A DNA stretch of 64,000 nucleotides from contig OZ025255.1 in NCBI GenBank assembly GCA_964019135.1, positions 19,755,708 to 19,819,707 on the forward strand, given 5' to 3'. Position 1 is the stretch's first letter, and each line of letters starts with the position of its first letter. The notes under the pieces are model-generated. The model was not told where the DNA came from and did not search any database. It saw only the letters and a program-made list of their open reading frames with translations. The DNA is from Arenicola marina. Its lineage: Eukaryota; Annelida; Polychaeta; Arenicolidae. The position numbers were made by a program, and so were the translations under genes. Positions 16,537 to 44,739 of the stretch are shown piece after piece.

Positions 16537-16671
16537 AGACCACCAACTATGCCACGTGTTACTGTTTGAATCAACTTCCCACGAGACGTAGCGATACATG
16601 CTGTAATAGCACGTGTGGCAGTGGCGGCGGTCTCCAATGTGGAGGGCACTATTACTTCAGTGTGTATCAAG
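16537..16671 (+). CDS. Gene A exon: C-terminal half of a WSC domain
   Basis: Bounded by TTCAG and GTAAGT, 135 nt. It codes TCYCLN, then a cysteine-rich stretch ending [11 protein letters not shown], matching the WSC ending (CYC...C...C...CGG...SVY). The equivalent in gene B is 34,421-34,546. WSC domains are thought to bind carbohydrate at the cell surface. Confidence 0.75.
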
Positions 16672-19600
16672 GTAAGTCAATACTACCAATACGCATTTGA
16701 AATTCATTTCGTTTACATAATGAGCTAGCTGAAATAAGTGAGTATTTAAAAATAATACATCTATGTCGATCGCGCTGTACTATTTCGTACATAGGCCTAT
16801 GTGGCACGAGGATGTGTTGTCTTTGTAATAGCATCGTAAAAATATCGTCACTGTCATTTATACATGCATTTCCATCGTCTTTCGCGTGAAAACGGGAAAG
16901 TTTGAACATTAATTATCATCTTAAAGGTAGCTACTCGGCGGTCCGAAGCGTCCACGCCTCACCCCACTTAATTCGATGACTTCCAGGAAGCACGTTTGTC
17001 AACCGATTGGCAACCCTTTTCCACTTTTATCTAGCATTGCATGAGACTAATGTGGTATTTTCTTAACCTCACCCTGTATGTTTTTCTGGCCGCGGCATTT
17101 ACGGCCAGGCTGCTTGCTCCTGAGAGATCGCTAAATGCTCGTGCTTGCGACAGGTCTAAGTAACAGCACATGTCATGTAAATGAGTCTGAGGCAAAGATA
17201 GTGGATTAGCACTTCACGGGTCGAATTCGTTGTTTTTATAAAAAATGTTTTCTTATAGACAATTTAGTACCAGTACAATAACATAGACTGTTAAGAAATG
17301 AATTAATTAAATTTACATAGCACAACAATTTGATGATAACAACTCGACGTACACGTTTGCAACGCAAATATTAATATAAAAGCGCGAATGCCGAGAAGCT
17401 ACTCAAGTTACTCAACCACAGCAAAAGCCGCCAGTCCATCGCCTTTCGCAGCCAGATGGATGCCCACTATCCTGTCCAAAGGTCGTCTACAGATCGGACA
17501 AATTTGGTCGGTCGAGAGCGAGTGGGGGTCAAAAACATGTCCTGGACAACATTTTATTATGGATCTACTTCAAAATGGAATTAAAAAACATTTTACTTTT
17601 AAAAGGCTCTGGCAAAATGCTTTGAAATCTATTTATTTTTGACCGACTTTCACGAAAAAAATTACTTGCTGAAGCATAGCGTCACGTTTAATATATGAAT
17701 AGCAAAATACAGATATGTTATTGAACTAACATTTTCTCCATAAGCTCGATTGCAACAAAATTATTCCATATAACTCAAAATGCAAAAAAAGCTAGTCGCC
17801 ACCCACTCAGGACCCTAATATTACAGCTAGAGACATGGTATTAGTGCCAAAATACTCACATTCTCAATATCTTTGACGATATGTGATCCCAATTTTGAAC
17901 TACGACCAATGGCGCTACGGCTTGTCAGCAAATAGTACATTGACCTCACAAAATGTAAGCACAGATGGGGCGTTGCGATCTGTAAAAAGATTAGCAGGGA
18001 CAACAAGGGTACCGCCGTGGTACCGGATGTCAAAACTCATAGCGATTCGATCAATACTGATCCTGAGCCCACCAGGCTGATTAGCCTGTTTAAAACAGCA
18101 TAGCGTCTACTATTGTCTCGCATTAGCACCTTTTATCTATAGTGATAATAGCTTCAGAGGAGGTCTCAACCGCTGACCATAGTTTCTGAACATATTCATA
18201 TTAGATCATCATTCATAACGTCATACATACAAGCCACACATACATGCATAACTGTCGTAATGCAAACAATATCTACGTGGCCAATGCTTTGAAAACCGGC
18301 CTTCCAATCGCACTTGTGGTCGAAAAGTTGATTTGTTGCAATGACCTTTTTACAACGTATTGCATCGTGTGAACAGGGCGTTATGTCACACTGATTTATA
18401 CATTTTTATGTCTAATAATATGTTGATAATAGCGTCTACTTTTCGCTTGAAAACCACTTTTCTTTCAGACAGTGCAAACATTGTTCTCAGCCATATAATT
18501 TTTCAGTAGATGCCTTTACGGTTTGAAGGCCTCGAGCTTGTAAAGAAATCTCATGAACTATATTATTTTGCCTCTTAGCGCATTTGTCTCAAAATAAATT
18601 ATTGACTGTGCCATTCGTTTTAATTAAAATTTTTAAATCACTGCTTGGCTTAAATTTAATTTAAACCAAGTAGTTTATTTTTAACCTCGCATATTGGATG
18701 CACATTTCAGATGTGAACGAGTGCCTTACCAACAATGGTGGCTGTCCCCAGACATGCGTCAACTCCATGGGCAGCTTCTCCTGTCAGTGTCGGGAAGGCT
18801 ACAGACAGGCTGGTTCTTTCTGCACGGGTAGGTAATGCCACACCCAAGACATACGAATGATACAGTGATTCTCACAAAGTTCAATGGGTGGTGCTAAATG
18901 TCTTCATAATTTCTTTGACTTGTCTCTCTGTATTTCAATATCTCGTTATAAGTTTACTTAGTTGCGTGTAATATCCAGGGGCAATCCAGCTGGGTGACCA
19001 CAATGTTAGGGTTGTCACTATTATTATTAGTAGTAGTATTATATACACTTAATATACTGTACAATACTTATAGCATTGTCCCAATGCCTCGATATACGTT
19101 GGAGTTGATACTTCCAGCATCAACAAATACACGGCTATGTACGGTGACAATTTGCATTCGTAGTACAATGTCATCGCATTCTAACTCACGTGATAAATTA
19201 CAATTTTAACTTTTTGGTAAACGTTTGTGGGCTCCAATTGATGGATCTATTTGAAAATGTAATAAAACACATATCCAACTTTACTAAAAAATAAAACGCT
19301 CGGGCGTAATGCTTAAAAAATGTAGTCATATTCAAGATTGTGAAACCCTCCCAAAACACAGGTCGGCAGACTTTCCCTAAAAACTGCCCACAGTAGCCTA
19401 GCGTCATGTTGAATACATGAATAAAAAAAGACAGACATGTTATTGAAACAAATTTTCTCCATCGGCTCGATTGCAGCAAAAATAAGTAAAAGAATAGGCC
19501 AGAAATGTAGAATTATCATGTGTTTGTCTATACGCGTATATGAAATCGATGTTGAGTGTCATTGGACATCAACGTGCAAAAAAAAAAAATCTGAAAAAAA

Positions 19601-22107
19601 TCCCAAGGCGCCATCCGCTCACGACCTTAATATTAGAGCTATAGACACCGAAATAGTGCCAACATACTCACATTCTCAATATCCTTTACGACAGGTTTTT
19701 TCTAGTTTGAGGTCTGATCAATAGTTTTCGCGCTACAGCTACAGATTAAGGGTACCGTATGTCAAAACTCATAGCGATCTGATTAATACTGTTTCCATGG
19801 CGACCAAATAGTACATTGGGAACCAACGAGGTTTTTCGCCCGCTGATTTTTCCGACTTACCAAACAGGATGACTCCGCTTGGTTAGGACATTGAGTCCGC
19901 CGGTTAGATTGAGGATACCCAAAATCACGGCGATATGTATTCCTTTTGAAGGCCGCAACGGAATATCTCGTTATGAAAGATACGAATTGAGCTTTCTTTC
20001 ATTTTAGAGCAGTTACAATCCACCTAGCTGGGCCTAATTTGGTCCTCAAGGGGTCGGTCGCATGTATCAGGTGCAAGATGAATGCGATCGCACTGTTATG
20101 TTCTGTTTCAATGGCAACGCAACGATGGCCCAATGGTGAAAGACATTTTTAAGTTAAGCATGTGCCAAAGAAAACTAAAACATGAAGGCCACGCGCGTCA
20201 TCTTTGAGCCACCTGTGATGGTATCTCAAAACTGACCGTTTTTCGGCGACCAGGTTCAAAGGTTAAGGTCACGTACTTGACTACTCTAAATGTCGAGTGG
20301 TCGGCTGTAGCTCAAAAACTAGACAATATGGCATAGCAAGTCATAACAATTTAAAATTTGTGAAATTCACGGTGCCCCCAATGTAGAGACTTCGCAATTG
20401 TATAGAACAATGTAGAATTGTATTATTTTTGTACACTTTTAGGTTCCAATGACAACCAATATCAATCCATGTGACATCAAATATTAATTCCGCTGCCAAA
20501 TTTGCATGTCTGTTATGATTTACAAGCAAATACACAAAATATTCAGTGATTGCATATACGCGCCGAAAGGCCAATTGGGATAATTCTGCATTTTGGCCTA
20601 TGTTATAGCCTGTATTGCTTACAATCAAGCTCATAGAGTAAAAGTTAGTTCAGTAACATTTCTTTTGTTAATATTGATGTTTTCACCTTGATACTAGACT
20701 TCAGCAGGCATTTTTTGGGGGAAGTCTGTAGCCCAGATTTTTGGAGGGCTTCAACATCTTTAAAAAATGCAATATAAAACATTTTTTCTATGAGCGTGAT
20801 GTTAAAGCCAATTTGACAAAAATGGCGAACACTTTTTTTAGTAAAGTAGTAACCGTTTTTAAATTACGTTTTCAAGTAGATCCATAAACAATACTTATTT
20901 AAAGAAAGAAAAAAAAATCGTTCAACCCGCCACCCGCTCCCGACCTTAAAAATTGCCGTGTTAGCACTTTTGCGGCAATCGACTAAAGGGTCGTTGCAAT
21001 TGTAAAATATAAGGCGTTCTCGTTCTCCTATGGCAAAACTCAACACCTCTTTAAACTATCCTAGTGTCTACTTTTTTCGTACATTAGCACCTTATCTATA
21101 GTGATAATAGCCCTAATAAAGATCTCAACCACACTGACCATAGTTTATCAGCATATTCGCAAGAAACCTAGCAGGTGCGGAATGTCATGTGCCGTGTTGT
21201 ATATGGGACAATGATTCTATTCTCGTATACGCCATCGCTTTTAAATTTGTCGTAGATCATGCAACATGTTATAACTAAACTGGACAATTTTCGGTTCAGG
21301 TATATCGTTAACTGTTCTCGAATAGAGCACATTGATAGCTATAAACTTTATGTCCCACTGGTTTCTAACATTAAACCGTTTTTTTTATGTTTGAGGCTCT
21401 GTTCTTAATAGTGCTTACTTTTCACTTGAAAACCACTTTGCTTTCAACCAAATCAATGCACACATTATTCTCAGCCATATAATTTTCAGTAGATCCCAAT
21501 ACGGTTTAAGGGCCTTGCAGAGAAATCCCATGAAATATATTATTTTGCCCCTTAGCGCATCCATATAAAATAACTTATTGATTGTGCCATTCAGTTATTG
21601 ATCCCACGAAATGTATTCTATCGATAATAACCAGGGGTTCATCCAGAAAATCTAAATAGGGGGGAGCCGGTTTCAGGGTCGGATCCAGATATGTTGTATA
21701 GGGGTGGCAGATTTTCTTTATCATATATTAAATCATATAAATTATGTAAATTTCGGCCCTAAAAGGAGGGGGGGCGGGGCCAGGTCGATCGCCACCCCCC
21801 CTCCCCGCCTAGATCCGCCCCTGTTAACCTCGCAAATTGGGTGCACATTTCAGATGTGAACGAATGCCGTACTAACAATGGTGGCTGTGAGCAGACGTGT
21901 GTCAACTCCCCGGGCAGCTTCTCCTGTCAGTGTCGGAATGGCTACAACAAGGCGGGTCCTTTCTGCACAGGTAGGTGATGACACATCCTTGGGTGGTGCT
22001 AAATGTCTTCATAATTTCTTAGACTTGTCTCGATATATTTCAATATCTCAGTATAAGCCTACGCATCCAGTGGCATATCCATCTCGACATGAAATATGTT
22101 ATGGTCA

Positions 22108-22145
<38 letters not shown>

Positions 22146-25100
22146 TTATTATTATTATTATTATATATGCTTATTATACTGTACACTGTTTATAGCCTTG
22201 TCCTAATGCCTCGATATACGTTGGGAGTATAAGTTGCATACATGTAAAACGCGTACAATCATTATAATGTGTAAGGTGAATGTTGCTTAGTTATAGTGAG
22301 TGATGTTATGGCCATGAGGTACGTTTTAGATATCGACGAGTGCGCCACCAACAACGGCGGGTGTGACCATATTTGCACCAACACCCCTGGGGGCCGCGCG
22401 TGTTCATGTCGGGAGGGATATCTCACAGGCCGCACCACGTGTACAGGCACGTAACATTTAGGGCTTAGTGAAATCCTCACGCCATGCCATATATAGGCAT
22501 CTCTATTATTACAATAAGCTCCCAATTCATACCATGGTGCAGCCAGTCCATACCACGGTGTTCCCAGTCCTTACTGTAGTGCTCCCAGCGCACATCGCGG
22601 CCTGTCTAAACATTGCCTGTCATGGAATAATATGGATAGGTGCTACCTAAAAAGCGCGAGCGTATATTTATTAATTCAGATATTCCGAGGGGATACATCT
22701 AGATTAATATTAAAAATTAATCTCACTTCGGCTTGCCATAAAGAATATCTTTGGCGGGATGACGTATACCATGCACGTGCTTGTGGCATATCATTCGGTT
22801 GCTAAGAACTCCCATTATGACGTCATGTTTAACTTTTGACGTCACAACTACTCACTATGACAACAACCCATGGGCGGTCACCAAGAGCTTTCTGCTTGGC
22901 AACAGACATTTAGTCCGTCGCTTATAACTTAACTTTAATTTGGAGTATACATCCAGTATACATCCAGTGTTAACATTGAATAATTTTACATCCAGTATAC
23001 ATCCAGTGTTAACATTGAATAATTTTTTCGTTAATTTTACATCGTTTTACATCCAGTATACATCCAGGGTTAACATTGAATAATTATTTCGTTAATTTTG
23101 TGGGGCAGCTGATTTAATTATTAAAGACATGACATAATAGGCTTCGACCTCTCTGTGCTTGAATATATTTATGTACAGCTGATATTTACTCCGAATCCGA
23201 AAACGTCTCATGGGGGTTGCAACGCGAAATAAAAGTCCTAAGCCTATGCTTGAAATGGACTTTGAATATGCACGCATGTTACCTCAAGAGCTCGCTTGCG
23301 CTCGCTAATATGCTTAAAAAGCGCCGTGTTAGCACTTTTGCGGAAACCGACTAAAGGGTCATTGCGATTGTAAAATAAACGGCGCTTTGGTTCTCTTATG
23401 ACATCACCCCTCCCTCGCCCCAATTTTCGCCGTGAATATAACCCACCAGTATTACCGTTCACGTATATGGTTAACTGTGCTAGCATAGAGTACATTGACA
23501 CCTATGACCTTTACGTCACACTGATTATAACATGCATTCCTTTTGTGTTTGTTTGATAATCTGTTGATAATAGGGCTTACGTTTTGCTTGAATCCACTTT
23601 TCTTGAAACTAACGCAAACTTTATTCTCAGCCTTATCATTCTTCAGTAGAAGCCTATTTGGTTTAAGGGCCGTGTAAATAAATTTCAAGAAATATATTAT
23701 TTTGGCTCTTAGCGCATCCATATAAAAATTAATTCATTGACTGTGACATTCAGTTATTGATCATACAGAACGTGTATTGTTGATGCCGAACTTAATTAAA
23801 ACCCTGTAGTTTGTTAATAGCCTCGTATATTGGGTGCACTTTTCAGATGTAAACGAATGCCTTACTAACAATGGTGGCTGTCAGCAGACGTGTGTCAACT
23901 CCCCGGGCAGCTTCTCCTGTCAGTGTCGGGAAGGTTACGGACAAGCTGGTCCTTTCTGCACAGGTAGTTAATGACACATCAAAGACAAACGAACAGTGAG
24001 TCTGACAAGTATGAATGGGTGCTGTCTCGATAATTCTTTAGGCATGTCTCGATATATTTCATTATCACAGTATAAGCCTGCGTAGTTGCGTTAATATCCA
24101 GAGGGATTTCTTTTGGTAAAATCATTTATTTGGAATCCAGATAGTTGTGGATACGTAACACTCATAGATCTGTCATCCAGGGAGATAACCAGTTGGGTTT
24201 ATATATATTATGGTTTTCATTATTATTATTATATACACTTACTACAATGTACATTATGTACACTGTACACTTATATAAGTTGTACACGTATGTACACGGT
24301 CCACTTATGTAAACTGTACACTAATGTACACTTATGTACACGTAAACTTATGTACGCTGTGCACTAATGAACGCTAATGTAACTTATGTACACTGTACAC
24401 CAATGTACACGTTTGTACGCTGTACACTTAGGTACACAGTACAATTATGTACACTGTGCACTGTTTATGACATTGTTGTAATGACTCGATATACTTTGCG
24501 ACTGACACGCCAGGTGCATTAACAAATTATGAAACATTGTGACTGACATTTCAGTTATGCACGGTGACCAATTTGGTATTCATACAACTACCTAATGGCT
24601 TTCTAATTCCCATCATAAAATTACCATTTTAACTCACGTCTTGGTAATAAGTATAATTATTCACGTTTTTGCTAAATATCTGGCGTTCTCGTTATCCTAT
24701 CGCAAGACCCTCCCTCGCCCCATTTTCCTCATAAATATCATCCACCGGGCTGATTTCCTCTTTACAATAGCTTCTTGTCTACTTTTGTCGTGCATTCGCA
24801 CCTTATTCATGGTGATAATAACCCAAGTAGAAGTCTCAACCACTGAACATTGTTTTCTGAGCATATTCACAAGAAAACTAACATGTGTGAAATGTCATGT
24901 GCCGTGTTGTATATGGGACAATGATTCGATTCGTGTATACGCCATCGCTTTAAATTTGCCATACACGATAGTAAATCATGCAACATTTTAGAAACTAAAT
25001 TGAACAATTTTCGATTCAGGTATGTCGTTGACTGTCCTAACATATAGCACGTTGATATCTATAACCTTTATGTCACAGTGATTTATTACATTCAACCGTG

Positions 25101-27782
25101 AGATTCCTATACTGTGCCGTGTATAGAACTTTCAAGAAATATATTATTATCCTCTTAGTGCATTCATAGAACAGTTAATTCACTGACTGTGCCATTCAGT
25201 TATTGATCATACAGCACGCGTACTATGGATGCGGAATTAAGTTTAAACCAAATAGTTTATTAATAACCTCGCATATTGGGTGCACTTTTCAGATGTAAAT
25301 GAATGACTTTCTGACAATGGTGGCTGTCCCCAAACGTGTGTCAACTCCCCGGGCAGCTTCTCCTGTCAGTGTCGGGAAGGTTATATCCAGGCTGGTACTT
25401 TGTGCATAGGTAGGTAATGGCATATCAAAGACAGATACCATGTTAACAGATACCGCTATGCCTAATATGTAAAACGCGTAAGATCACTATGCAATGTACT
25501 ATGTAAGCTAAATGCTACTCAGCTATAGTGATGACATAATGGCCAGGGGATATGTTTTAGATAGGTGCTGTCAGTTCATATCGTGGTGTACCTAGTCCAT
25601 ACCGTGGTGCCCCCAGTCCATACCCTGGTGTTCCCAGTCCATACCGTGGTCCTGCCAGTCCATACCGTGGTGCTCCCAGTCCTTACCGTGGTGTTCCTAG
25701 TCCATACCGTTGTGCTCCTAATCCATACCGTGGTGCGGTCAGTCCATACCCTGGTGCTGTCAGTCCATGCCGTGGTGCTCCCAATCTATACCGTGGTGCT
25801 TCCAGTCCATACCGTGGTGCTCCCAGTCCATACTGTGGTGCTGTCATTCCATACCCTGGTGCTCCTAGTCCATACCCTGGTGTTCCCAGTCCATACCGTG
25901 GTGTTCCCATTCCATACCGTGGTGCTCCCAGTCTATACCGTGGTCCTCCCTGTCCATACCATGGTGCTCCCAGTCCATACCGTTGTGCTCCCTGTCCATA
26001 CTGTGGTGCCCCCAGGCCATACCGTGGTGATCCCAGTCCATACCGTGGTGTTCCCAGTCCTTACCCTGGTGCTGTCAGTCCATACCGTGGTGTTCCCAGT
26101 CCATACCGCGGTGCTCCCAGTCCATACTGTGGTGCTCCCAGTCCATACCATGTTGCTCCCAGTCCATACCGTGGTGTTCCCAGTCCATACCGTGGTGCGG
26201 TCAGTTCATACCGTGGTGCTCCCAGTCCATACCATGGTGCTCCCAGTCCATACCGTTGTGTTTCCAGTCCATACCTTGGTGGTGTCAGTCCATACCGTGG
26301 TGCTGTCAGTTCATATCGTGGTGTACCTAGTCCATACCGTGGTGCCCCCAGTCCATACCATGTTGCTCCCAGTCCATACCATGGTGCTCCCAGTCCATAC
26401 CGTTGTGTTTCCAGTCCATACCCTGGTGGTGTCAGTCCATACCGTGGTGCTCCCAGTTCATACCGTGATGCTCCCAGTTCATACCGTGGTGCTCCCAGTC
26501 CATACCGTGGTGCTCCCAGTCCATACCCTGGTGGTGTCAGTCCATACCCTGGTACTCCTAGTCCATACCGTTGTGCTCCCAATCCATACCGTGGTGCTTC
26601 CAGTCCATACCGTGGTGCTCCCAGTCCATACCGTGGTGCTCCCAGTCCATACAGTGGTGTCCCCAGTCCATACCGTTGTGCTCCCAATCCATACCCTGGT
26701 GCTGTCAGTCCATACCGTGGTGCTCCCAATCTATACCGTGGTGCTTCCAGTCCATACCGTGGTGCTCCCAGTCCATACTGTGGTGCTCCCAGTCCATACC
26801 GTTGTGCTCCCAATCCATACCCTGGTGCTGTCAGTCCATGCCGTGGTGCTCCCAATCTATACCGTGGTGCTCCCAGTTCATACCGTGGTGCTCCCAGTCC
26901 ATACCGTGGTGCTCCCAGTCCATACCGTGGTGCCCCAAGTCCATACCGTGGTGCTTCCAGTCCATACCGTGGTGCTCCCAGTCCATACCGTGGTGCGGTC
27001 AGTCCATACCCTGGTGCTGTCAGTCCATGCCGTGGTGCTCCCAATCTATACCGTGGTGCTCCCAGTCCATACCCTGGTGCTGTCAGTCCATGCCGTGGTG
27101 CTCCCAATCTATACCGTGGTGCTTCCAGTCCATACCGTGGTGCTCCCAGTCCATACTGTGGTGCTGTCAGTCCATACCCTGGTGTTCCCAGTCTATACCG
27201 TGGTGCTCCCAGTCCATACCGTGGTGCTCCCAGTTTATATCCGTGGGCATTGCTCGATTGTATTCTGTGTCGTATACAAAATGAAACAAATGCTGAACCA
27301 TCCTTTGTAAAAATCTGTAAGACAATTACTGATGCGGCTTTAGTAACTCGTGATGTTTGGGGTGATGGGATATACATTACATATTACTTATATATATATA
27401 TGTATATAAAATACACATTATTTCAGAAGTCCTGGGGTCTACTTCCTCATCTTCTACCGCACCGCCTGTCTGGCTGTACGCCGCACTAGGCATTCTCGCG
27501 GCTGTTGTCATCGCAATGAGTGTTGTCATCTTCATGCTGTGGCGCCACCGTGCGGGTAAGAATGACACCAACAACACAGCAACTGCGTCCCGCCCTCTGG
27601 ATCCTCATCCGGGTTCTGAGAGAGCCATCCCTGCCAGTCCAGCAGTCGTCTCGTGGGAAGTGAGACCCACAGACCCCGAGGCGTCTGCCGCACCGGCTGA
27701 CCCACAATACGAAGAGATCAAGATGTACACCAATTGGGAGGCGGCGCAGGGAGTGAATGAGAAGGTGCAATCTAGTTGCTAA
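16537..27782 (+). CDS. Gene A: WSC/EGF transmembrane receptor with short tyrosine-motif tail (5' end not found)
   Basis: Exons, all phase 1: 16,537-16,671 (second half of a WSC domain), EGF exons 18,711-18,827, 21,854-21,970, 22,330-22,447, 23,847-23,963 and 25,293-25,409, and terminal exon 27,427-27,782 with a transmembrane helix and ~75-residue tail. The EGF modules are of the calcium-binding type (DVNEC or DIDEC). The tail has [11 protein letters not shown], combining a pYEEI-type Src-family SH2 site and a pYxN Grb2-type site; that these are used is inference. The exon at 25,293 has TGA where the first cysteine codon should be, but every EGF exon is a 117- or 118-nt symmetrical cassette, so skipping keeps frame. 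No signal peptide or first WSC half is visible upstream, so the gene may be truncated. Possible poly(A) signals: ATTAAA at 27,933 and AATAAA at 28,343. Confidence 0.7.
16672..18710 (+). other. Gene A intron
   Basis: AT-rich, with no recognisable gene. The stretch around 17,700-18,080 recurs at about 19,430-19,760, showing that intron sequence was duplicated together with EGF exons. Confidence 0.6.
18711..18827 (+). CDS. Gene A EGF exon 1
   Basis: 117 nt, phase 1 at both ends, CACATTTCAG acceptor and GTAGGT donor. Calcium-binding-type EGF starting [12 protein letters not shown] with six cysteines (NEC, GGC, TC, SC, QC, FC) and the Gly/aromatic GSFSCQC core. Confidence 0.88.
18828..21853 (+). 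other. Gene A intron
   Basis: About 3 kb with no exon recognised apart from intronic repeats. 19,960-20,340 contains an AAGGTTAAGGTCACG stretch similar in style to the element at 34,656-35,860. A MITE lies at 21,674-21,823. Confidence 0.6.
21674..21823. mobile_element. Short MITE, 150 bp
   Basis: Imperfect terminal inverted repeats: CAGGGTCGGATCCAG at the left end, and CAGGGGCGGATCTAG as the reverse complement of the right end. AT-rich centre, then G/C runs. It sits 30 bp before the acceptor of EGF exon 2, so it now supplies much of that branch-point region. Confidence 0.65.
21854..21970 (+). CDS. Gene A EGF exon 2
   Basis: 117 nt, symmetrical phase 1, CATTTCAG acceptor and GTAGGT donor. 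Starts [12 protein letters not shown], all six cysteines present, ends GPFCTG. Confidence 0.88.
22108..22166. repeat. (ATT)n microsatellite
   Basis: About 55 bp of ATT repeats with one interruption, inside a gene A intron. Confidence 0.95.
22330..22447 (+). CDS. Gene A EGF exon 3 (DIDEC type, GC donor)
   Basis: Acceptor TTTTAG. Codes a six-cysteine EGF starting [12 protein letters not shown] and ending TTCTG. The position that should hold GT after the final ACAG has GC (ACAG then GCACGT), and reading on gives ACG and TAA at once. A paralogous exon in gene B (37,571) has the same arrangement. Either a GC-AG intron is used, or this is an alternative terminal exon giving a secreted form. Confidence 0.8.
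22505..22605. repeat. Seed copies of the 21-bp minisatellite
   Basis: About four imperfect units of the CCAGTCCATACC..GGTG type lie just downstream of EGF exon 3. This is the same repeat that forms the large array at 25,565-27,245. Confidence 0.75.
22635..23285 (+). mobile_element. Interspersed element, ~640 bp, no coding capacity
   Basis: Begins near ATAGGTGCTACCTAAAAAGC and ends near CACGCATGTTACCT. A reverse-complement copy lies at 57,657-58,206. It contains a TGACGTCA-like region and, in this copy, a roughly threefold repeat of CATCCAGTATACATCCAGTG (22,945-23,075) that is nearly absent from the other copy. Probably a non-autonomous DNA transposon; family not determined. Confidence 0.7.
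23847..23963 (+). CDS. Gene A EGF exon 4
   Basis: 117 nt, symmetrical phase 1, TTTTCAG acceptor, GTAGTT donor. [12 protein letters not shown] start and all six cysteines present. Confidence 0.87.
24215..24450. repeat. GTACAC-rich tandem repeat
   Basis: Irregular 10-13-bp units around TGTACACTTA. Self-complementary GTAC cores could form local hairpins. Intronic. Confidence 0.8.
25293..25409 (+). pseudogene. Gene A EGF exon 5 with nonsense codon
   Basis: Acceptor TTTTCAG and donor GTAGGT are intact and the length is 117 nt, but the DVNEC motif reads DVNE-stop (TGA in place of TGC). The other five cysteines remain. A single substitution explains it. Because the exon is symmetrical, a transcript could leave it out without a frameshift. 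Confidence 0.85.
25565..27245. repeat. 21-bp minisatellite, about 80 units
   Basis: The unit is near TCCATACCGTGGTGCTCCCAG. Because 21 is a multiple of three, both strands stay open: VHTVVLP repeats on + and RYGLGAP on -. It lies in the last intron of gene A, and there is no sign it is an exon. The 5' edge falls just after TTTTAGATA, which corresponds to the acceptor of a DIDEC-type EGF exon (compare 22,321-22,332). Confidence 0.93.
27427..27782 (+). CDS. Gene A terminal exon: transmembrane helix and cytoplasmic tail
   Basis: Acceptor TTTCAG, phase 1, stop TAA at 27,780-27,782. Codes a Ser/Thr stem, a hydrophobic helix ([20 protein letters not shown]), a basic stop-transfer (WRHRAG) and a tail of about 75 residues. 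The tail contains two tyrosines, in QYEEI and MYTNW. A potential GTAAGA donor lies just after the RHRAG codons (at 27,556), so a longer spliced form is possible; none was found. Confidence 0.85.
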
Positions 27783-28965: not shown

Positions 28966-29035
28966 ACAGCCCCCCGCTGCGTGGCCCGCTAACTCACATG
29001 GAGCGGGCGAACGTGGGGCTGTGGAAGAGCCTGCC
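28966..29035. repeat. Hairpin insertion flanked by direct repeats
   Basis: CTCCACAGCCCC pairs with GGGGCTGTGG, and GCCCGCT with AGCGGGC, around a short loop. The direct repeat CCCTGATATGT lies on both sides (about 28,947 and 29,036). Looks like a tiny foldback insertion with an 11-bp target duplication. Confidence 0.5.
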
Positions 29036-32726: not shown

Positions 32727-32808
32727 ATGGCGGTGGCTGGGCACCGGGTCTTCCCCGTTGTACTGTGGCTCCTGGTACAGCTGAGATACAGTGAAACGGA
32801 CTCACTAG
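32727..32808 (+). CDS. Gene B first exon: signal peptide
   Basis: ATG inside [21 protein letters not shown], core VVLWLLVQL, and tail SETDSLG. One codon shorter than its paralogues. GTAAGT donor intact, phase 1, matching the WSC exon at 33,671. Confidence 0.8.
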
Positions 32809-35800
32809 GTAAGTCTGACGGCTTTCACCCACATGTTGGTAGGGGTGGAGTAGGGGTGATGGTTGGTTGATTATTCAGGACGCTTTAACGGCTTTGGTCA
32901 TATCGGGTCAATAAGAGAAGGAAGGGAGAGAGGAGCCATGTCTCCGGGGGTAACCCCCTACTCTTTACGAAGAAATACCTTGGATCTTTACAGTGCGGCC
33001 ACACAAACATGGCAACAGCAGGGCTCGAACCACCGATTCACGTGCCGTCGCACTGAATGCGAGCGATTTAGCCCACTGAGCTGTCGCGTCTGCCCCGAAT
33101 AGGGGTGAGACGGCAGGTGTGATGATCCCCGTGACGTCATGTCGGTGGTTGGGCACCGGGTCTTCCCCGTCCTTGTACTGTGGCTCCTGGTACAGCTGAC
33201 ATACAGTGTAGCGGATGCGACGGATAAGTCTGACGGCTCTTACCCGAGCCTGGAAGGGTATGGGGGGGGGGGGGGTAGGAAAGGTAGCCGGCGCACGGAC
33301 ACACATCTCGCACAAGCTGTTGACAATATCTTAGATACTAACTGTTATTTCCGAACCTAACTTTTGATATCATCTTAGGAACTAACTTGACATTGCCTTG
33401 GTATCTAGCTGTTGATATTATCTTTGAAACTAACTGTTGGCATTATTTTCGAAACTAACTGTTGACATTATCTTGGAAACTAACTATTGACATTATCATT
33501 GGAGTCTATCTGACATTATCTGATGTTAGCATGTCATAATTTTGACATTTATATTAACATCGGCTGAACCCGGCCACCACTTGAAAAATGTCCCCCCCCC
33601 CATTCCCCGCCTCCACACACACACACACACGCACCCCTTGGCGGTTCATAATGATGATTCCTTCCCGCAGGATACATATATATTCAGTGCTCGAGACATG
33701 CACTGGGAGGTCCGTCTGACAGGGAGGCGCAGGATGACGTCACCGTCCAATGGTGTCTCGCGTTCTGTGGCGAGCAAGACCCGGCATACGGCTACGGCGG
33801 ACTCAGGGTCAGTGCCCAATGTGAGGGGAGGGAATACCTTTTACGATCTCCGTCATTGGCATCCGCGAATTCTTGGAGATTCGCGATCAGCTGTTGGCCA
33901 TTTTTGGGGATCGTTATCCGTACAATTCCTTGTTCAACGCGAAGACCCATTCACTATTTATCGCCATTCGTCATAGCAATTTGGGTGGGGTCCCCACCCC
34001 CCAGCTCAATGCCCCCCCCCCCTCCTTCGTCGGGTGAAGTGAATCTTATGTGTGTGTTCGCTGTCAGTCTGCTATTATATGTGGGGATGCAGCTGCTACT
34101 GTCATAACATAAATATAGCAGCCAAACAGCGACCACTACGCTGTCTGTTCACCTCTTTAAATGACGCACCTACATTGCCAACATTCAGCATGTTCCACCA
34201 TCCATCTACACTGGTTGGTTCTCCTCTGTGTTGCGTTGTGTATGCATATACGAAGTTAAGTATCAACGCAGATATACTTTTATCGGATCGAAACGTCTGG
34301 AAGTGAAATTCGAGGGAGGGTGCGGTTTATTGTTTCAGTTCCAACGCATTGCATGACGATTTGAATCACACTTATGTTGATGCTTTCTCTTCAAGCGCGT
34401 ACGTCGACAGCACACACAAGCCGATTGTTACTGTTTAAATACTCCTGGCGAGAGCTTTGGTGCTGCAAACTGTGGCAGAACGTGTGGCGGTGGTCTTCAA
34501 TGCGGAGGGCAGAAGAGGCCCAACTCATACGTCAGTGTGTATCAGGGTAGGTCAACACTGATAATATGCCTCTGCGCCTTACTTCACATAAAGACTCCAA
34601 TAGCTGAAGGTACATACAGACGCTAATATACCCATCATATCGGTCGCACATTTTTAAGACGAAAATCTGCGATTTTCGTCTTATGTCGGTGTGTTCGGTT
34701 TGTTAAGACGAAAATCTGCGATTTTCGTCTTATGTCGGTGTGTTCGGTTTGTTAAGACGAAAATCTGCGATTTTCGTCTTATGTCGGTGTGTTCGGTTTG
34801 TCTGTCTGTTTGTCTTGTCACGCATTATCTCTCCAACGCCTCACGATATCGATTTCCAAATTCACAAAAAGATGCGGAGTGGCCATCGTCAGGCCCAATT
34901 ATCAGATGGGCAATGTAGGTCAAATTTCAGGGTCACAGGAATTTTTTGAAATTCGCTTAACCATTGATAGATAGGACCAAAAATCGGACAAGTCGCTATA
35001 ACGTTCACAGTTTCCATTTATTCGCGCTGCAAATTATTTCACGCATTAGGCCTATCAGTACCTTGTATGTCGTCTTTAAATTTTGCAAATCGCCGAATAG
35101 TTTTCATGCAAAAAATTCTTAAACTTTAACATTGACCCCTATGAGAGGATTTTGGCGGGAAAATGGCTCCTCAATTTCTCCATGAAGGGTACAAGTGAGA
35201 CAAACGACGCTTTGCATAGGACATAAGATTAGTATTTAGGGTCGGATGACGATACTGATCCAGGTCACGCATCAAAGGTCAAGGTCAAATCAAGGTCAAG
35301 GTCACGGAACATGATTTTAGCAGTAACTCCGTTAATATTGGGTCTAGAGATCCGCGGTTTGTTTCAGAGTATTTCTCAGAGTGAGGCGCAAAGGAAATCT
35401 CAGATTTCACGTCACATTTATAGTTTTCGAGTTATTAGATGATCTAATTTTTACTTAACGAAAATGATACAAAAACCGATGTGACAACATGCATGTAGTT
35501 AGATTAAATATGTGTGGTGGAATATGTCCTAATAATACTGACATCATGTGTGCCAAATCCCATCGAAATCGAACCGGTAGTTATGACGCAAAAAAATAAT
35601 CTTACTTTAACATGGCCAATCCCATTGTGAAGCATCGACAGGCCAAATGACTGCCAGCGCGGTGACCGATTTCGCAATAGACCTCGTTCGGTACGGGTTT
35701 GACGCTCAGTGACTTTTTTTGAAATTCATACGTTCTCGCTATCCTCCAGCTATGTTATACGCGGGTTTATTAGTACGGCCTCTGAACTTTATCTGCGACC

Positions 35801-38800
35801 TTTCATAGTTATCGGGTCAAGGTCAGTTGCACCTATACCCCGATTTTCGTCTTCCCTCTCAAGCTACGCTTGACAAATCTAGTTTACGCATCTTCAACCT
35901 CTGGTCATTGTCATGTAATAATAATACTGTCATCACTGGCATGCATGTTGTACGTCTTTATTCATGTGTTTGACGTGACATGGTTCGATATGGGTTGCCA
36001 CGGGATAATATGGACCAGGGATTTGGGATATCATGTATCATTTAATATCGGCCTCGATACAGGGGTTAGAAAAGCGGACTGTTGTCTATATTAAAATAAT
36101 ATTTTACTAACGATTGTGCACCTGCAATAAGGCTACACAATAATTTGGCACGACATTTCACAGTAATATATTCAATTCGATTTAATTAGTGTGGATGCCC
36201 TCCCCCCCCCCCCCACCCACCACCTTCCGTCGTCATGTTCCAGTATAAGCTTAAGGTAGAGAGCGGGTAGCTACCGTGGCCGAATTTTTCCGAAACAAAT
36301 CCCCTTTTGTTCTCATTTTCATTTCATAATTTCCCCGCCAAACATGCATGCATGTTACATATTACAAGCAAATACATAAACTATTCATTGCAAATACTCG
36401 CCAAAAAGCCAAAGTGGGATAATTCTGCATTGTTGGCCTAATTTAAAGCCTTGTTATTTATAATCGAGCTTACAGAGCAATAGTTAATTCACTATCATAT
36501 CTGTATGTTGATATTTGCGTATGCAATGTGACGCTAGATTTCAGTAAGCCCTTTTTTAAGATTTTTCTCATTGATCGCTGTGTTAAAGCCAATTTGACAA
36601 TAATTGCCAAAACGTTTTTAAAGTAAAATAACTCCAAAATAACCCTCCAGCCGATCTCGGCCTATAACACAAACAAAAGTAATGCGAGAGCTACCATTGT
36701 TCAATATTTATTTCTGGTGCGAAATTGAATTTAAACTTGCTAACCTCGAATATTGGGTGCACATTTCAGATGTAAACGAATGCCTAACTAACAATGGCGG
36801 ATGTGACCAGACGTCTAACAACACTCCCGGCAGCTTCTCCTGCTCCTGTCGAGACGGCTACAGCCAGACTGGAGCCAGCTGTATGGGTAGGTCATACCTG
36901 GTCACTATGACCAGACGTGTAACAACCGTCAGGTGTCGGAAATGGTAAGACAAGACTGGCACGTTATGCACAGGTAGGTTATGACGCATTGCTGCTTATG
37001 CCTAAAGTTCCTTCTGCGTGCCATTAATGTAAAACTTGTACATCGCTCATTTCATACTGTGAATAAATTTATACTGCCGGATGAGGTAGTATGCATTGTC
37101 ACTGACATACAATTCCCATCTGAGTAATTATACATGTACATTGTGAATGACCTAAATAGGCGTTTCACTCGTTGCCATGGGAACGTTAAAAGGTGAAAGC
37201 TTTTAATCCCAGATAATATTTCGTGAATTTGATAAATATCCAGGTACTTCATTCATCAAATATTGTGGTTGTCATTACTTTATAATAGTTAATGTACGTT
37301 GTTTCATCAACACCATTGATTATCAAACATTCTGATCGACATTACGGAGTACACACATGGCTAAAGAAAATGACTAATTTATTACTGTATAGATATGACC
37401 CTGTAATCTGATATTTGTCACTGTTCGTATGCACTGTGACAGATTTTATCGTACCGATACCGGTATGGATGACTGACCAACATGTATAACATGTAAAACT
37501 ATAACCGCAGCGAATGGAAGTTTACTGAACTATAATAATGATATTATAATGACCGTGTTGCATGTTGTAGATATCAATGAATGCGCCACCGACAATGGCG
37601 GGTATGATCACACTTGTACCAACAAACAAGGTGGCTACAGCTGTTCATGTCGGGAGGGATATCTCTCCGACAACACCACGTGTACAGGCATGTAGCATCT
37701 AGAACATACGACTGACAGCAATTTCGGCCCTATAGACTACAAAAGTTGCTTTACTCATTAAATACATCAATGAAAACCTTGAGAAATATAAGAATATATA
37801 ACAATATTTTCGGGAACAGACCATCGTAACTTGCGCGCTTTATACCTGTGTGTAACATTTACTATTCGGAAGGTCATCAACTAAATTTGGACTCGATTGC
37901 AGTCTCAATATCAGCTATGTCGACACATTACAGACATAGACGAGTGCGCAGACCCAAAACTCCACAACTGCCGTCCCACTGACAAATGTCGGAACAAGGA
38001 TGGAAGTTTTGAGTGCATCCAACAAGCGGCGACTACAACACTATCAAGCATAGTTACAGGTGAGACAGTTTCATTCCGGCTGATGCAGCACATTAATATG
38101 GACTGACATACTAAAATATTCAATCATTGTATATTAAAAAAAAATGGTTGATCTTCCGTTCATTAGCGGACAGGAAATCTACTTTTCTTGCGATAAGGGT
38201 GACTGGCGGAAGTCGACAGACGATCTATGAGCAGATATTATTTTATTATGGTGTCCTGCCCCTAGCTTCAGACTTTGCTGAAAGAGACACACTAATATTA
38301 CAACGCCTTGTGCTACCCTATATTTTCCAAGATATGACAACTGGAATGTCTGCCGGGGCGCATGGTGGCGGTGGAGGCGGCCTCAGCCTCGGTCTGATAG
38401 CCGGAGTGTGTGTCGCTGCCGTGGCCGCCATTACAGCGGTTGTCGTGGTCGTCCTGGTCGTCCTCAGACGCAGGTCTGTCAAACTGTGTCCCGTTGAATA
38501 TGCTGATAAATTGTATATATACTGCATCCCACAGTATATTGTTTTCCCAGATAGTGTTCGCGAGGTTCTGTTCCAAGCCTACGATGGGCGAAAGACAAGT
38601 TATACTGATGATTGTTTGGAACGATGAACCTATTCATCTCACGACCTAACTGGCATCTCTCGATCGCTCGGAGAGACGCACTGTTGAAGTTGGTCGACAG
38701 GAAAGAAAATTAACCAAAAGAAAGATAAGTGTCAATTTTGTTACCATATATATTTAAATCGTGGAACATGATTTGCAGTCAACTGTATAATGTACGTTAT

Positions 38801-41800
38801 GTTCCTGTATTGATTCATTCGTATGTTTAATCTCAAGGCGGGCCAAGCCAAGGTATATCAACGATATAGCAATGGCAGGTTTTGGTCCAAAAGACAAAAC
38901 GCTGGGTAAGCCAAGTTTCATTTGTGCAGAAGCATAGATATGGTGAGTCTTTCTACTATATATTACCAAGCTGTATAAGTAATTACTCAGGCCAAAGTGG
39001 AAAAAATAATTGTAATCGTACATCTTTATCTACATATTTATGAACTCTAATTCTTCATTATTTAGGACACAGTGTGTAACAAAAGTTAGTGTGAAGTATA
39101 TTTTTTACTTTCTACAACTTATTACGTACTTTTCTATGCAAAAAGTACATTGATCACACATTCAATTAATTTTAAAGCCAATCTGGATGCAGAAGTGTAC
39201 GTGATCAATAAAGGAGTCTTATCCAGTGACCAGTAGATATATTATCGTTAATTCTCATCCAGGTCCTCCAGTAAATACCTGTCGCGTTGCTCGTAGGAAC
39301 ATCAGCCGAACAGGTCACCCAGCCCGCTAAGAACACAGACCAGGACACTCAAGTCCCGCAACCGACAGATCAGGGTTCTGCCCGAGACACAGAGGTTGCC
39401 TCTGATGCCGCCCAAGTGGAAGTCGTGTACGAAAACTATCACTCTCAAGTGAAGGTCGACATGTTTGTAGACCACGTCAACCACTTGAAACAAAACAAGA
39501 ACTTCGAACACGAATTTGATGTAAATATTAAATATTAACAGTGATAAGAACAACCGAGCAGCGATGCTCTAGTGATCGTGACATAGTTAATTGACATATT
39601 TGTGTTGCTGGGTATCCTACACATATATATTACTGTTATGCAGGAATTTACGAAAGGGGGGAAATCATTTATTAAAATACTATCTAAGCGCACGACCCCT
39701 TTTCACTTATTTTCCAGGGAAAGAGGGGGAGGGGGGGGGACGTCCCCATGTGCCGCTCTCCATCTGGGGTCGGCCACTTTATTATACTTAAAGAATGTTA
39801 AACGTGCTATATATATATATATATTAGTTATATTAGTTATATATATATTCAAATCCACGTTTCAATAATACATGAGAAACCTTTCGTGTTGCAGACACTC
39901 GTCGATGCCAGCGATCACAGCTGCGCGGCCGCCAAGCGCAACGGACTTGCTGCCAAAAACAAGTATAAAAACATGTTACCGTGTAAGTACCAGATAAAAA
40001 CCACGTGGTTTGCATTGTACAGTATCGCTGGCACTACCAACTACAATGTCTTGAGAGATAAGTGTTGATCTTTGTTTTCAGATGTGTGTATATCTCCTTT
40101 CAGATGATGAGACTAGAGTGAAGCTGAAGACACTTGATGACGACCCCCTGACCGACTATATCAACGCCTCACTCATAAATGTGAGTGACGCTGGCTTTTT
40201 TGCAGGTTACACTGTGTAACATCAATAGATACGTGGTACAATAATTAAAATGAAAGCTTAGTCATAAAAGATACGAACCATATAGATAGGGTATTTACAC
40301 CGGACATGACATGTTAATACTGTACCGATGCAGGAAATGGTGCATATTGATAACGTAATTTATACTTGACATGATGTGTCTTGATATGATATTGATCATA
40401 TACCAGGGTATAACATGTTCTTATACAAGATATGATGGACATTAATATGGTCAACAAAACATACCACATTTTAATGAGGTATTTCGGAAAGATATGATGC
40501 AAATTTGTCAAGTATATATACAAGATAAATGAGGAATTCAAAAGGCGTTTCCTTCCCATTTAACTTATATCATGTTGCATTTGTCACGCAGGGATATGTG
40601 GACAATGATGAGTTCATCGCTTGCATGGGTAAGCTCGCAACCCCTGAATGGTGGAATGTGTGACAACTCTCATAGAGATCAAACAGGTGTCTGTGTTAGA
40701 CCAAGTGACACTGATCTACCTGACAGCAACTCTTTAATAGTGACTTCATATACAGAAATGTAACTTTTGACTTTACATTATATGAACTTGACTAAAATCC
40801 GCATCAGAATAGTGCACACAACGTTTCCTTCTGTAATGATTTTAGTGCCGTAATTTGACAGGACCAATAAACACAACGGTGAACGACTTTTGGAGAATGA
40901 TCTGGGAACGAGATGTGCCCTTGATTGTCATGGTGACCAACCTAAATGAAGGAGGCAAGGTAGGCAAAATATGTTTATCCATTCTAAGTATACACTCTTA
41001 AACGGAGAGTCCATTTGTCATGATCGTGTTCTGTCCAGCCTTCTTCTATGCTAGAAGAATAAAGCAAGCACTGGTTGATCGACTTTTGTGCGTTGGGTTG
41101 AAGCAATAATGGCATACACAAGTTTTGTATGAAAGACATGAACAATAATATTTATATACATAAACTGTGAAACATCAATGTAGATAATGCATTGAAGCAT
41201 CCTCTATCTAGGAAAAGTGCGCCCTCTACTGGCCCGTGGACGAGGAGATTGAATACGGAGACATCAGAGTGAGGGCGGTGAAAGAAGACAAGTGGCTGGA
41301 CATCGTCAGGAGGCAGTTCACACTCATACAGGTCCTAAACCAATCAATCGCTTTAGCCGTAGATGCACCGCTGGATGGGTTTGAATGAGATTAATTTGAC
41401 CTATGATTGTTATGGTCGGTTGTATCCTACGAGTAGAACAACATGGCTCTAGCATTAATCAATCACAGTTACCATGCTATAGTGACACTCCATGAATTTA
41501 TTTTGACGCCCTGGATATTAATCCATCATTTTTATTCGATGGGTACACTAATCAAAACACCAATACTTCTGTGACAGACTAGCGACAAACTTACCGTGAA
41601 GCCCTGAAGTTTAGTCCATAATATTCATTGAATGGATGCCCAAATATGGCTCATAGCACCAATTATTCTTACCACTTATTTGCATGAGGCGGTCACAGAG
41701 ATGGGCCTAACTATTGTGACCTTTGACCTACCACAGGGTAGCGGGCGTCGCACGGTCCTTCACCTTCAGTATACGGCGTGGCCAGACAAAAACGTTCCGT

Positions 41801-44739
41801 CCAACGCCACCTCCATGGTCAACTTTGTGAGACAGGTCGGCAAGCAAATGAAAGCCAACAAGCCCACGGTTGTTCATTGCAGGTTAGAACTACTCCAATA
41901 GATAATAGGCCATATCTGCGGTGCCGCTTGCATTGCATGATATATAAATTAAAAACTATCTCATGTAATATGACATTAGCTGCTTGTAATTCGCTTTTCA
42001 TAACTAACTCTCATCTTGTTGAGGTCGAATAGCATAGTAATAATAGAATAGAATAGTAACGTCATAATGAAGGATCGTACCACATAAGACTGCGAAATAA
42101 CCGCTGATATTGTTGTTACTTGCAGCGCCGGTGTTGGCAGAACTGGAACATTGATAGCGCTTTACCAATTACTACACCAAGCAAACGACGAAGGTGTCAT
42201 AGATGTGCTCAACTGCATCAAGAAACTAAGAGCACAGAGGACAACTATGGTGCAGACATTGGTAGGTTCTATGTAATGTGGCATTTGTATGTTTATCAGA
42301 AGGGCCTCTTCGGGCTTTTGTCATAGTGATCTCTCAGAAACAATGTATCTACTTACCCACGACTTCCTCTAGAAGCTAAAGCGTTTCATCCTTGACTTCT
42401 CACCACAAGCAAAATGTCTTAATTTGTGACCTTCCCCATGTTTTTCTGCAGCAGCAAAAATCATCAATCTCCGACATCTTGCGGCATTAATATCATCTTA
42501 GCCAAACAGTATATCATCCCCCAAGAAACTTAATGTCTTTATCCACAATGTGTTTCACAAACAATGCCTTCGTCCAAAACGAAAGTCATTCCATGCACGA
42601 CCTGTTTCAGAAAAAATATTATTATCCACAATCTTTTCCAGAAACAATATGTCTTCATCCACGACGCGTTGGCCGAGTACATCACAACCGGAAGTACTTT
42701 GATGTCCATCGATGTCTTCACCGAGACCTACGGAAACATTGTGAAGCCTGGAGCAGATGGAACTAGCGCACTCGATAGACAATTTAAGGTAAGTAGTAAT
42801 CTGGAAACTTTTAGATCAATAACAAACTGCATGTTTTAATATATTATTTGCGCAAAATAGTATGCAATAATAGATGGCTTTAGGTGAATGCCCCGTATCC
42901 AAAGGGATTTAATGCATATATATATAATATGTGCAATATGTGTTCTACTGCAGATCATACAAACCACAAGAAAGGAAGTATCGGAGTATGATCAAGATGA
43001 CGCACTGAGCAAACATAACGCAGCCAAGAACAGAGACAAGGCAATATTGCCAAGTAAGACACATGCTAATACAACCATGCAAGTATCCACCCACTGGTGC
43101 TTAGCGCGCGATTAACGAAATAAACATTCTCCTAACTCTATTTCCTTACAACTAACTGATTTTCATGTCATTTCATATAACCCCATGCAATTTCGTCTTA
43201 TTCTGCCTATAGGAATGACACGTCGGGTGTATCTTCAACAACGCTTCACCGGACGGAACGACTACATCAACGCAGTGACGGTTAATGTGAGTTAGTTACG
43301 CGGTGGCGGTTCCATGGATGATATACTATGAGGCTAGATTGCCCAAAAGACAAACGAGAGAGCATTACAAATTATTGAATTTGTTCGGTTGAAAATAGGA
43401 ACGAATGCTTGTTTCAGGGATACAGAAAACACGATTCCTTCTACGTGACCCAGATTCCTCTGGAGACGACCGTCATCGACTTCTGGCGAATGGTGTCTGA
43501 GAACGACTGCCGCTCCATAGTCCTGCTGATGCACGATGGGGATGAAAGGGTTTGCGGGGTCTTTTCCTGGGAATAATTCATGATGATTTTTGCAAATATG
43601 AATCCGCAAATGTATCTTGCGTATTAGATCATCTGGTGACTCAATTGAATTTAGTTCATGCTGCGTAATTACTTTGCATATCTCAAACAGGAGATGCCCC
43701 GGATGTTCCCCTACAAATCCACGCCGCTCCTTGTGGCGGGCCGTCACGTGACCCAAACCGGAAGTACCATAGGCGGAAGTCACCAAATCGTCGATTTGAT
43801 CATGGCAGAAGCTGGCGAAGAGAATGAAGGCGCAGCGACCTACGCAAACGTCAGCGAAGTGTCTGTTCCCACACCGGTGAGCTTCAAATCTAACAAGTTA
43901 ATTAATTCTAGTGAACATGAGATAATATGAAATGGCCAAGAACTTCCAGCCTAGAACAACAATCTGAGTGGCGTCAAATAGCGCCTAGGCCAGCCGGTAC
44001 GATTGCAAGAGAGCGCACAGTAAACTTATATTTTTAGAAACCCGACAGCGAAGACATTAAACTAAAAGTGTTCAAGCTGTGCACCAACAGGCGAGACGAA
44101 CTGGCCATGGATGACGTCATCTCACTACACTCGGATGTTGAAACTTGGCAACGCAGCAGTGGCGATCGACCCGTAGTGGTGTCATGTCTGTAAGTGTCAT
44201 CCATGTTGATTTGATAAATAATAATAGTAGGATAACTGTAAAGATGGATCAAATTACAGGTCCTCAAGAAAACTGTAACTGACTGCTGATGATAGGTGTG
44301 ACGATGTTACGTTCGCGTCATGAAATCATTTTGTTAGACCAAGCTCCGACGCCGGTCATCACACCGTCTCGTTGCAGCAATGGCGCCAGCCTGAGCGGCC
44401 TCTACGTGGTCAGCTGTAACATATTTGAGATGGCTAACACAGAGGGCGAGGTGGACATCTTCCAGCTGGTCAGACAGGCCAAAGAAAGCAGACCGGACTT
44501 CATCAACTCCAAGGTAAAATAATTTGTCAAAGTCTCACAGCATTTTTTTAATTTAGTTTACAAAACTACTTAATCAAACATGTCAACGCAAGCAATGAAT
44601 TTATATAGATTGCCTCTAAAGAGATATAACTGAAAATAATTGTTCATAACCACAATCTTTACAGAACCAGTACGACCTGCTGTACGCTACCCTGGAGACA
44701 CATCTAGAGAAATACAGCAATTATTCCAACTACAATTAA
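32727..44739 (+). CDS. Gene B: receptor-type tyrosine phosphatase with WSC and EGF ectodomain
   Basis: Exons: 32,727-32,808 signal peptide; 33,671-33,820 and 34,421-34,546 WSC; 36,770-36,886 and 37,571-37,687 EGF; 37,934-38,059 partial EGF; 38,332-38,473 transmembrane; 39,297-39,520, 39,895-39,982, 40,104-40,180, 40,592-40,628, 40,862-40,959, 41,212-41,331, 41,737-41,882, 42,126-42,261, 42,642-42,788 juxtamembrane and D1; 42,954-43,053, 43,213-43,286, 43,418-43,549, 43,691-43,876, 44,038-44,189, 44,378-44,513, 44,665-44,739 D2. Phases agree throughout except between the transmembrane exon (phase 2) and 39,297 (phase 1), so a small exon is probably missed there. Product about 930 residues. D1 has WPD and [10 protein letters not shown] and should dephosphorylate phosphotyrosine at the inner membrane face; D2 is degenerate. 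Donors at 38,474, 41,332 and 43,550 are weak. Vertebrate RPTPs have other ectodomains. Confidence 0.88.
32851..33108 (-). mobile_element. tRNA-derived SINE between two first exons
   Basis: The reverse complement has a tRNA-like head with a B box GGTTCGAGCCC, followed by a body containing ACATGGCTCC and ending TCCTGAATAATCAACC. Flanked by the 9-bp direct repeat TAGGGGTGA (32,851-32,859 and 33,100-33,108). A second copy lies at 63,721-63,969. Confidence 0.85.
33139..33223 (+). pseudogene. Second signal-peptide exon of gene B, donor lost
   Basis: Same TGACGTCATG context and full signal peptide ([26 protein letters not shown]), but the donor reads ATAAGT where its sister exons have GTAAGT or GTAGGT. 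Unless another donor is used, transcripts starting here would not splice to the WSC exon. Confidence 0.65.
33395..33535. repeat. Imperfect ~28-bp repeat
   Basis: Five to seven degenerate units of GAAACTAACTGTTGACATTA type in the first intron of gene B. Confidence 0.75.
33671..34546 (+). CDS. Gene B WSC domain (two exons)
   Basis: 33,671-33,820 codes YIYIQCS, QWCLAFC and [11 protein letters not shown]. 34,421-34,546 codes [25 protein letters not shown] and SYVSVYQ. Together they make the usual eight-cysteine WSC pattern, ending in phase 1 at GTAGGT. The first exon's donor is GTGAGG; the second's acceptor is CACACAAG. The split position matches gene A's surviving half. Confidence 0.8.
34656..35856. 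mobile_element. ~1.2-kb non-coding element with repeated hairpin end
   Basis: The left end has a 49-bp unit three times (34,656, 34,705, 34,754), each with a perfect hairpin: AAGACGAAAATC and GATTTTCGTCTT around TGC. The right end at about 35,840-35,855 has CCCGATTTTCGTCTT, the inverse of the left terminus. The body includes TCAAGGTCAAGGTCACGG. No reading frame of note. Probably a MITE-like element whose terminal hairpin was tandemly amplified. Confidence 0.6.
36770..36886 (+). CDS. Gene B EGF exon 1 (one cysteine lost)
   Basis: 117 nt, TTTCAG acceptor and GTAGGT donor. [12 protein letters not shown] start, but the third cysteine position is serine (DQTSNN where its sister exons read QTCVN). 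Five cysteines remain, leaving one unpaired. Confidence 0.85.
37571..37687 (+). CDS. Gene B EGF exon 2 (DINEC type, GC donor, one cysteine lost)
   Basis: Acceptor TTGTAG. Starts [11 protein letters not shown], then tyrosine where the second cysteine should be. The other five cysteines are present. The donor position is GC (ACAG then GCATGT); unspliced reading gives ATG then TAG. Paralogue of gene A exon 3. Confidence 0.8.
37934..38059 (+). CDS. Gene B partial EGF and stem exon
   Basis: 126 nt, TTACAG acceptor and GTGAGA donor. Begins DIDECADP with four cysteines, then a Thr-rich stem ([11 protein letters not shown]) where the last EGF loop should be. A shortened EGF merging into a juxtamembrane stalk. 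Confidence 0.75.
38332..38473 (+). CDS. Gene B transmembrane exon
   Basis: Codes a Gly-rich stretch ([12 protein letters not shown]), then a long hydrophobic helix ([20 protein letters not shown]) and the basic stop-transfer LRRR. The CAG-GTCTGT donor is weak and leaves phase 2, which does not fit the next recognised exon. The frame stays open to 38,627 if unspliced. Confidence 0.75.
39297..42788 (+). CDS. Gene B juxtamembrane region and PTP domain D1 (catalytic)
   Basis: 39,297-39,520 is a Gln/Asp-rich linker with VVYENYHS, ending [10 protein letters not shown]1 follows with family motifs in order: NKYKNMLPY (phosphotyrosine loop), [44 protein letters not shown] (WPD loop with the general acid Asp), [13 protein letters not shown] (Cys nucleophile and Arg; the exon junction falls within the Ser codon), and [15 protein letters not shown] (Q loop). 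Every key residue is present, so D1 should be active. Confidence 0.93.
42954..44739 (+). CDS. Gene B PTP domain D2 (predicted pseudophosphatase)
   Basis: Recognisable as a second PTP fold by [22 protein letters not shown] and [10 protein letters not shown]. Key residues are missing: KNRD in place of KNRY; no WPD motif between 43,691 and 44,189; and the signature reads VSCLNGASLSG, keeping Cys but with Leu in place of the essential Arg. Typical RPTP D2 domains are regulatory, and this one is further decayed. Ends SNYSNYN and TAA. Confidence 0.88.

Follow-up and report, generated by a model that had tools for sequence, protein, structure and literature searches.

Two neighboring genes with related extracellular modules and different cytoplasmic ends raise the question of whether they form a receptor pair and, if so, of what kind. 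They lie in a 64,000-nucleotide stretch of Arenicola marina DNA (GenBank assembly GCA_964019135.1, contig OZ025255.1, positions 19,755,708 to 19,819,707; hereafter the window, to which all coordinates refer), whose content (a reverse transcriptase, minisatellites and genes rich in introns) points to animal DNA. The two genes, A (16527-27782) and B (33671-44739), are arranged head-to-tail on the + strand and have in common EGF exons, phase-1 exon boundaries and a half-WSC exon, but their cytoplasmic ends differ, A having a short docking-type tail and B a tandem protein tyrosine phosphatase (PTP). A first-pass annotation of the window had viewed them as paired activating and inhibitory immune receptors. 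The explanation we prefer, to which we assign a probability of about one half (0.52), is that B is an EGF-bearing receptor tyrosine phosphatase (RPTP) gene located beside a truncated and partly decayed paralog, A, that carries a docking tail, and that the two may meet in Src/Grb2 signaling.

Gene B appears to encode a complete receptor tyrosine phosphatase. Splicing in silico joined 23 exons, whose donors are GT in 21 cases and GC in one, into a single frame of 927 residues and a stop codon, in which the domain order is a weak WSC, three EGFs, a transmembrane segment and the PTP domains D1 and D2. The two halves of the WSC-like module (33671-33807 and 34396-34546) are 0.6 kb apart, the first upstream of the second, and together score 18.4 to 23.2 bits by Pfam depending on splice choice, which is below the gathering cut-off of 27.8 bits; a WSC search in the PDB returned one unconvincing match (E 0.18). 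Elsewhere in gene B, an intron contains a 49-bp unit in three perfect tandem copies (34654-34801). The EGF exons are of type a (36770-36886, third cysteine replaced by Ser), type b (37571-37687, second cysteine replaced by Tyr) and type c (37934-38059, short), and are followed by the transmembrane exon (38332-38473), a candidate linking exon of 68 nucleotides that fits both phases (38838-38905), and a juxtamembrane/wedge exon (39297-39520). The layout beyond the membrane is that of a receptor tyrosine phosphatase, as D1 (39895-42788, eight exons, Y_phosphatase E 1.7e-78) has the HCx5R signature, joined across 41882/42126, the WPD motif and the phosphotyrosine loop (NKYKN). D1 is intact and active-looking, in agreement with the claim of the first-pass annotation that gene B ends in an active tyrosine phosphatase. 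Conversely, D2 (42954-44739, seven exons, Pfam E 3.1e-37) is predicted to be inactive, because its P-loop, VVSCLNGASLSG, is missing the Arg and has Leu in its place. No relatives of the gene B phosphatase were confirmed in IMG/VR or GTDB genomes.

Gene A is, in our best reading, a partial paralog whose EGF exons were duplicated, that ends in a short docking tail of the Src/Grb2 type where gene B has a phosphatase, and that is damaged in this haplotype. Its WSC-like module is represented by a second half only (16527-16671, bounded by AG/GT sites, phase 0 in and phase 1 out), which is 51% identical to the corresponding half in gene B and scores 12.6 bits against the Pfam cut-off of 27.8. No first half for gene A was matched in the window, where the first half of gene B matched only itself (next best E 2.1), and no signal-peptide exon was found in 15440-16520. 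Five EGF exons follow, each of 117 nucleotides, with splice borders and with phase 1 in and out. Three are of type a, at 18711-18827 (EGF_CA by Pfam), 21854-21970 and 23847-23963; one is of type b, with a GC donor, at 22330-22446; and the fifth, EGF5 (25293-25409, also of type a), has an in-frame TGA at the position of the first cysteine codon of the remaining type a copies. Downstream of EGF5, the upstream flank and acceptor of a further type b exon survive (25467-25563, 75.5% identity to 22242-22332) and directly abut 1.7 kb of a 21-bp minisatellite of about 80 copies (25564-27246) that stands in place of the lost exon. The last exon (27427-27782) encodes the transmembrane segment and the tail, with the stop codon TAA at 27780-27782. 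When EGF5 is left out, the spliced model reads through 322 residues to this stop, and when it is included the frame ends within EGF5. A search for a PTP remnant belonging to gene A in 27.8-33.5 kb found none at E up to 0.5.

The relationship between the two genes extends beyond their coding sequences, since DNA similarity includes some of the introns (18682-18839 with 36741-36898, 77%; 20485-20716 with 36327-36556, 75%). In addition, the donor of both type b exons is GC (CAG/GCACGT in gene A and CAG/GCATGT in gene B), and a rare donor common to the two supports a common origin. The view that these genes share WSC-EGF modules, exon phases and introns holds for the EGF exons, phase 1 and some intron DNA, and is weak for the WSC, which is below the cut-off in both genes and of which gene A has only the second half. 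Within gene A, EGF units were duplicated together with intron sequence, as exemplified by 23669-23987 and 25116-25433 (85% identity). EGF_CA was matched by Pfam, although EGF5 and the type a and b modules of gene B are each one cysteine short. The ectodomains had also been proposed to be rapidly changing, with a test for positive selection in the EGF exons as a check, and our small within-window comparison gave this no support. The Nei-Gojobori omega was between 0.14 and 0.49, and hence below 0.5, in all 11 within-window pairs (10 of type a and one of type b), giving no sign of positive or diversifying selection in a test that is weak at about 26 synonymous sites per pair. The exon was also more alike than both of its flanks in six of six copy comparisons (the set with EGF5 being one base off). 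These low values may reflect selection that took place before the duplications.

Gene A had been put forward as a working receptor, a proposal that its half WSC, its nonsense codon in EGF5 and its EGF exon overrun by a minisatellite do not bear out, and because of which we regard the gene as damaged. The same three lesions would be expected if gene A were a dead pseudogene and its tail a relic. We consider this the foremost alternative, albeit an unlikely one, because the tail and the four other EGF exons retain open frames and splice sites and the EGF omegas are below 0.5, even if the latter perhaps record selection predating the duplications. If the damaged paralog that we favor is expressed, EGF5 would have to be skipped, and the product would be a docking-only relative of gene B.

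That gene A has a short tail with YEEI and a YxN motif was confirmed, the 11-residue segment that holds YEEI being at 27705-27737, inside the transmembrane exon and upstream of the stop. The 75 residues past the transmembrane segment look coding by both base composition and codon usage: GC content is 0.576, vs. 0.374 in the 230 nucleotides that follow the stop, and codon scores, for which 506 codons of gene B served as the training set, are 32.8 in frame vs. 1.8 and 18.4 in the other frames, with values of -24.0, -23.6, and -10.1 for the sequence 3′ of the stop. An open frame would in itself say little, as 0.067 of shuffles were also open. Likewise, some common phosphotyrosine motif (YxN or Yxx[LIVMP]) arose in 49% of shuffled tails, whereas YEEI was found in 32 of 100,000 shuffles and YEEI together with YxN in three of 100,000. 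pYEEI is described as a high-affinity ligand of the Src SH2 domain, and the tail matches the Src SH2 probe peptide given in that source at PQYEEI..Y (PMC2888578). The tail gave no BLASTP alignment to the gene B juxtamembrane exon at E up to 100, leaving homology between them without support, and no relatives of it were confirmed in IMG/VR. It is feasible that the tail could be removed by splicing in some transcripts, as a candidate 5′ splice site, GTAAGA (27556-27561, phase 1), directly follows the transmembrane segment; CGG/GTAAGA agrees with the consensus at seven of nine positions, equal to six of the 11 other donors listed.

The cytoplasmic part of gene B is also rich in potential docking sites. 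Nine of its 27 tyrosines are in YxN motifs, compared to a mean of 1.6 in shuffled sequences and with none of 20,000 shuffles reaching nine. However, the count of nine overstates docking because three are core PTP motifs and one is in the candidate linking exon. The YxN sites of gene B include YENY in the juxtamembrane exon and those of the C-terminal YSNYSNYN, within which SNYSNY aligns with SDYANF at the C-terminus of RPTP-alpha; the aligned RPTP-alpha residue we take to be Tyr789. RPTP-alpha takes the inhibitory phosphate off Src kinases and thereby activates them, and its phosphorylated Y789 is described as recruiting Grb2, BCAR3/Cas, and Src (PMC9333306; PMC7959691). The C-terminal YxN tyrosines of gene B, once phosphorylated, could similarly dock Grb2 or Src SH2 domains, making Src/Grb2 signaling a reasonable guess for gene B, as it is for gene A. 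In the likeliest mechanism, the ends of A and B would meet in this signaling, with the phosphatase of B acting on the kinase or on its substrates, and we lean slightly toward an effect of B that would raise the signal rather than lower it.

Several observations weigh against this explanation. For gene B, no convincing signal-peptide exon was found, the linking exon was picked from 42 phase-compatible candidates, and the adjoining type a and b EGF modules would each have one cysteine without a partner. For gene A, the first WSC half and the signal peptide could be located outside the window, upstream of the repeat arrays that precede the gene, and the TGA of EGF5 could be an assembly error or a rare allele. 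The model provided by RPTP-alpha is also less secure than it first appears, as the need for its Y789 in Src activation is disputed (PMC9333306; PMC7959691). Moreover, RPTP-alpha and epsilon rank first for gene B when the whole two-domain chain is compared to PDB entries, and RPTP-alpha topped that ranking only because the scores of both domains in a single chain were added together. With D1 alone, the R2B phosphatases PTPRT (229.6 bits), PTPRK (223.0), and PTPRM (216.3) score above RPTP-alpha D1 (195.2) and epsilon (189.2). For D2, among the best 60 of 242 matches, all of them PDB chains, RPTP-epsilon and alpha were best and no R2B D2 was recognized, although the D2 of RPTP-alpha keeps the P-loop Arg that is Leu in gene B. 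Because D1 is closest to PTPRT, PTPRK, and PTPRM while D2 and the C-terminus resemble PTPRA and PTPRE, gene B cannot be classed with the alpha-type phosphatases. The ectodomain of gene B also departs from both groups: those of RPTP-alpha and epsilon are short and have neither WSC nor EGF, and those of PTPRT, PTPRK, and PTPRM consist of MAM, Ig, and FN3 domains, which were not seen among the Pfam matches of gene B.

The affinity of D1 for PTPRT and PTPRK does remove one counter-argument to true paired activating and inhibitory receptors, in which A would recruit Src kinases through YEEI, B would dampen the signal, and the related ectodomains would see the same ligands. The adjacency of the genes, their related EGF exons and a coding tail with a motif as infrequent in shuffles as YEEI are likewise as expected of such a pair. 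However, we consider it improbable in view of the lesions in gene A, the lack of positive selection in the within-window omegas, the YxN sites that gene B bears as well, and the fact that no ITAM or ITIM patterns (immunoreceptor tyrosine-based activation and inhibition motifs) were found in the gene A tail or the gene B juxtamembrane exon. The opposition of activating and inhibitory logic is thus left unsupported, since a receptor phosphatase need not inhibit, as the activation of Src by RPTP-alpha illustrates. When one gene encodes a tyrosine motif and its neighbor a phosphatase, this alone does not make them activating and inhibitory partners. More improbable again is a cooperating pair, in which A would dock Src/Grb2 and the phosphatase of B would activate Src kinases, with one set of ligands joining both and possibly a single locus spliced alternatively at the phase-1 donor after the transmembrane segment of A. 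The priming of Lck by CD45 is an analog of this idea. The least probable is one complex gene in which the donor at 27555/27556, which matches seven of nine consensus positions and whose phase fits the juxtamembrane exon at 39297, lets the ectodomain of A join either its own YEEI tail or the phosphatase of B, as so short a site can arise by chance, gene B has its own ectodomain and transmembrane segment, and the last exon of A ends in a stop.

The closest published system that we found to an RPTP gene beside a docking-tail paralog is the SudRes1 cluster of Biomphalaria sudanica, which encodes RPTPs with MEGF and galactose-binding domains (PMC12297450). There too, single-pass receptors with an EGF ectodomain and an intracellular tandem PTP are clustered beside further MEGF genes, paralogs and haplotypes differ, including by loss of EGF domains, and the clustered EGF-RPTP genes are associated with schistosome resistance in snails. 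In contrast to the genes described here, the SudRes1 ectodomain has a galactose-binding domain, the term WSC is absent from the main text of the report, and no partner with a YEEI tail was seen in the portions of that source on which we rely. The closest invertebrate paired receptors found are fester and the fester co-receptors of Botryllus schlosseri, which are likewise products of adjacent genes and have tyrosine tails of the ITIM, hemITAM, and YxxI/L/V types (PMC12065747). Fester and uncle fester have been tested functionally (PMC12065747); unlike A and B, the family has ectodomains of the Ig and sushi types, and a phosphatase was not seen in the parts of the report consulted. Among the sea urchin SRCR proteins, some members have WSC and some have EGF-like domains (PMC10855680), and the word tyrosine is absent from the main text of that source. 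Neither a WSC-EGF receptor phosphatase nor a paired YEEI/RPTP locus was present among the open-access (PMC) matches listed, the search having covered open-access rather than subscription papers. The window would offer a second architecture for EGF-RPTP loci, with a WSC-like module, repeated loss of EGFs and a docking-tail paralog. It would also suggest a testable scheme for signaling by such receptors, in which relatives that have only a docking tail would act as partners or competitors.

The region upstream of gene A contains large strand-skewed repeat arrays in which both strands hold long open frames, comprising a 36-bp unit in about 107 copies (2992-6955) and a 49-bp unit in about 169 copies (7042-15387). 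Short tandem repeats in front of gene A (16102-16266) are related to others at the window's end (63241-63724), and inverted copies of a dispersed repeat, 89-96% identical, are found in an intron of gene A (22627-23292) and at 57654-58212. Between the two genes is a retroelement reverse transcriptase (29224-30741; RVT_1 E 4e-37 for 29224-30297). A candidate signal-peptide exon for gene B at 32727-32808 was not accepted, as it is inside a repeat that recurs near 1.0-1.6 and 59-60 kb. At 61884-62573, frames resemble by eye a reverse transcriptase relic, of which two pieces had no Pfam match.

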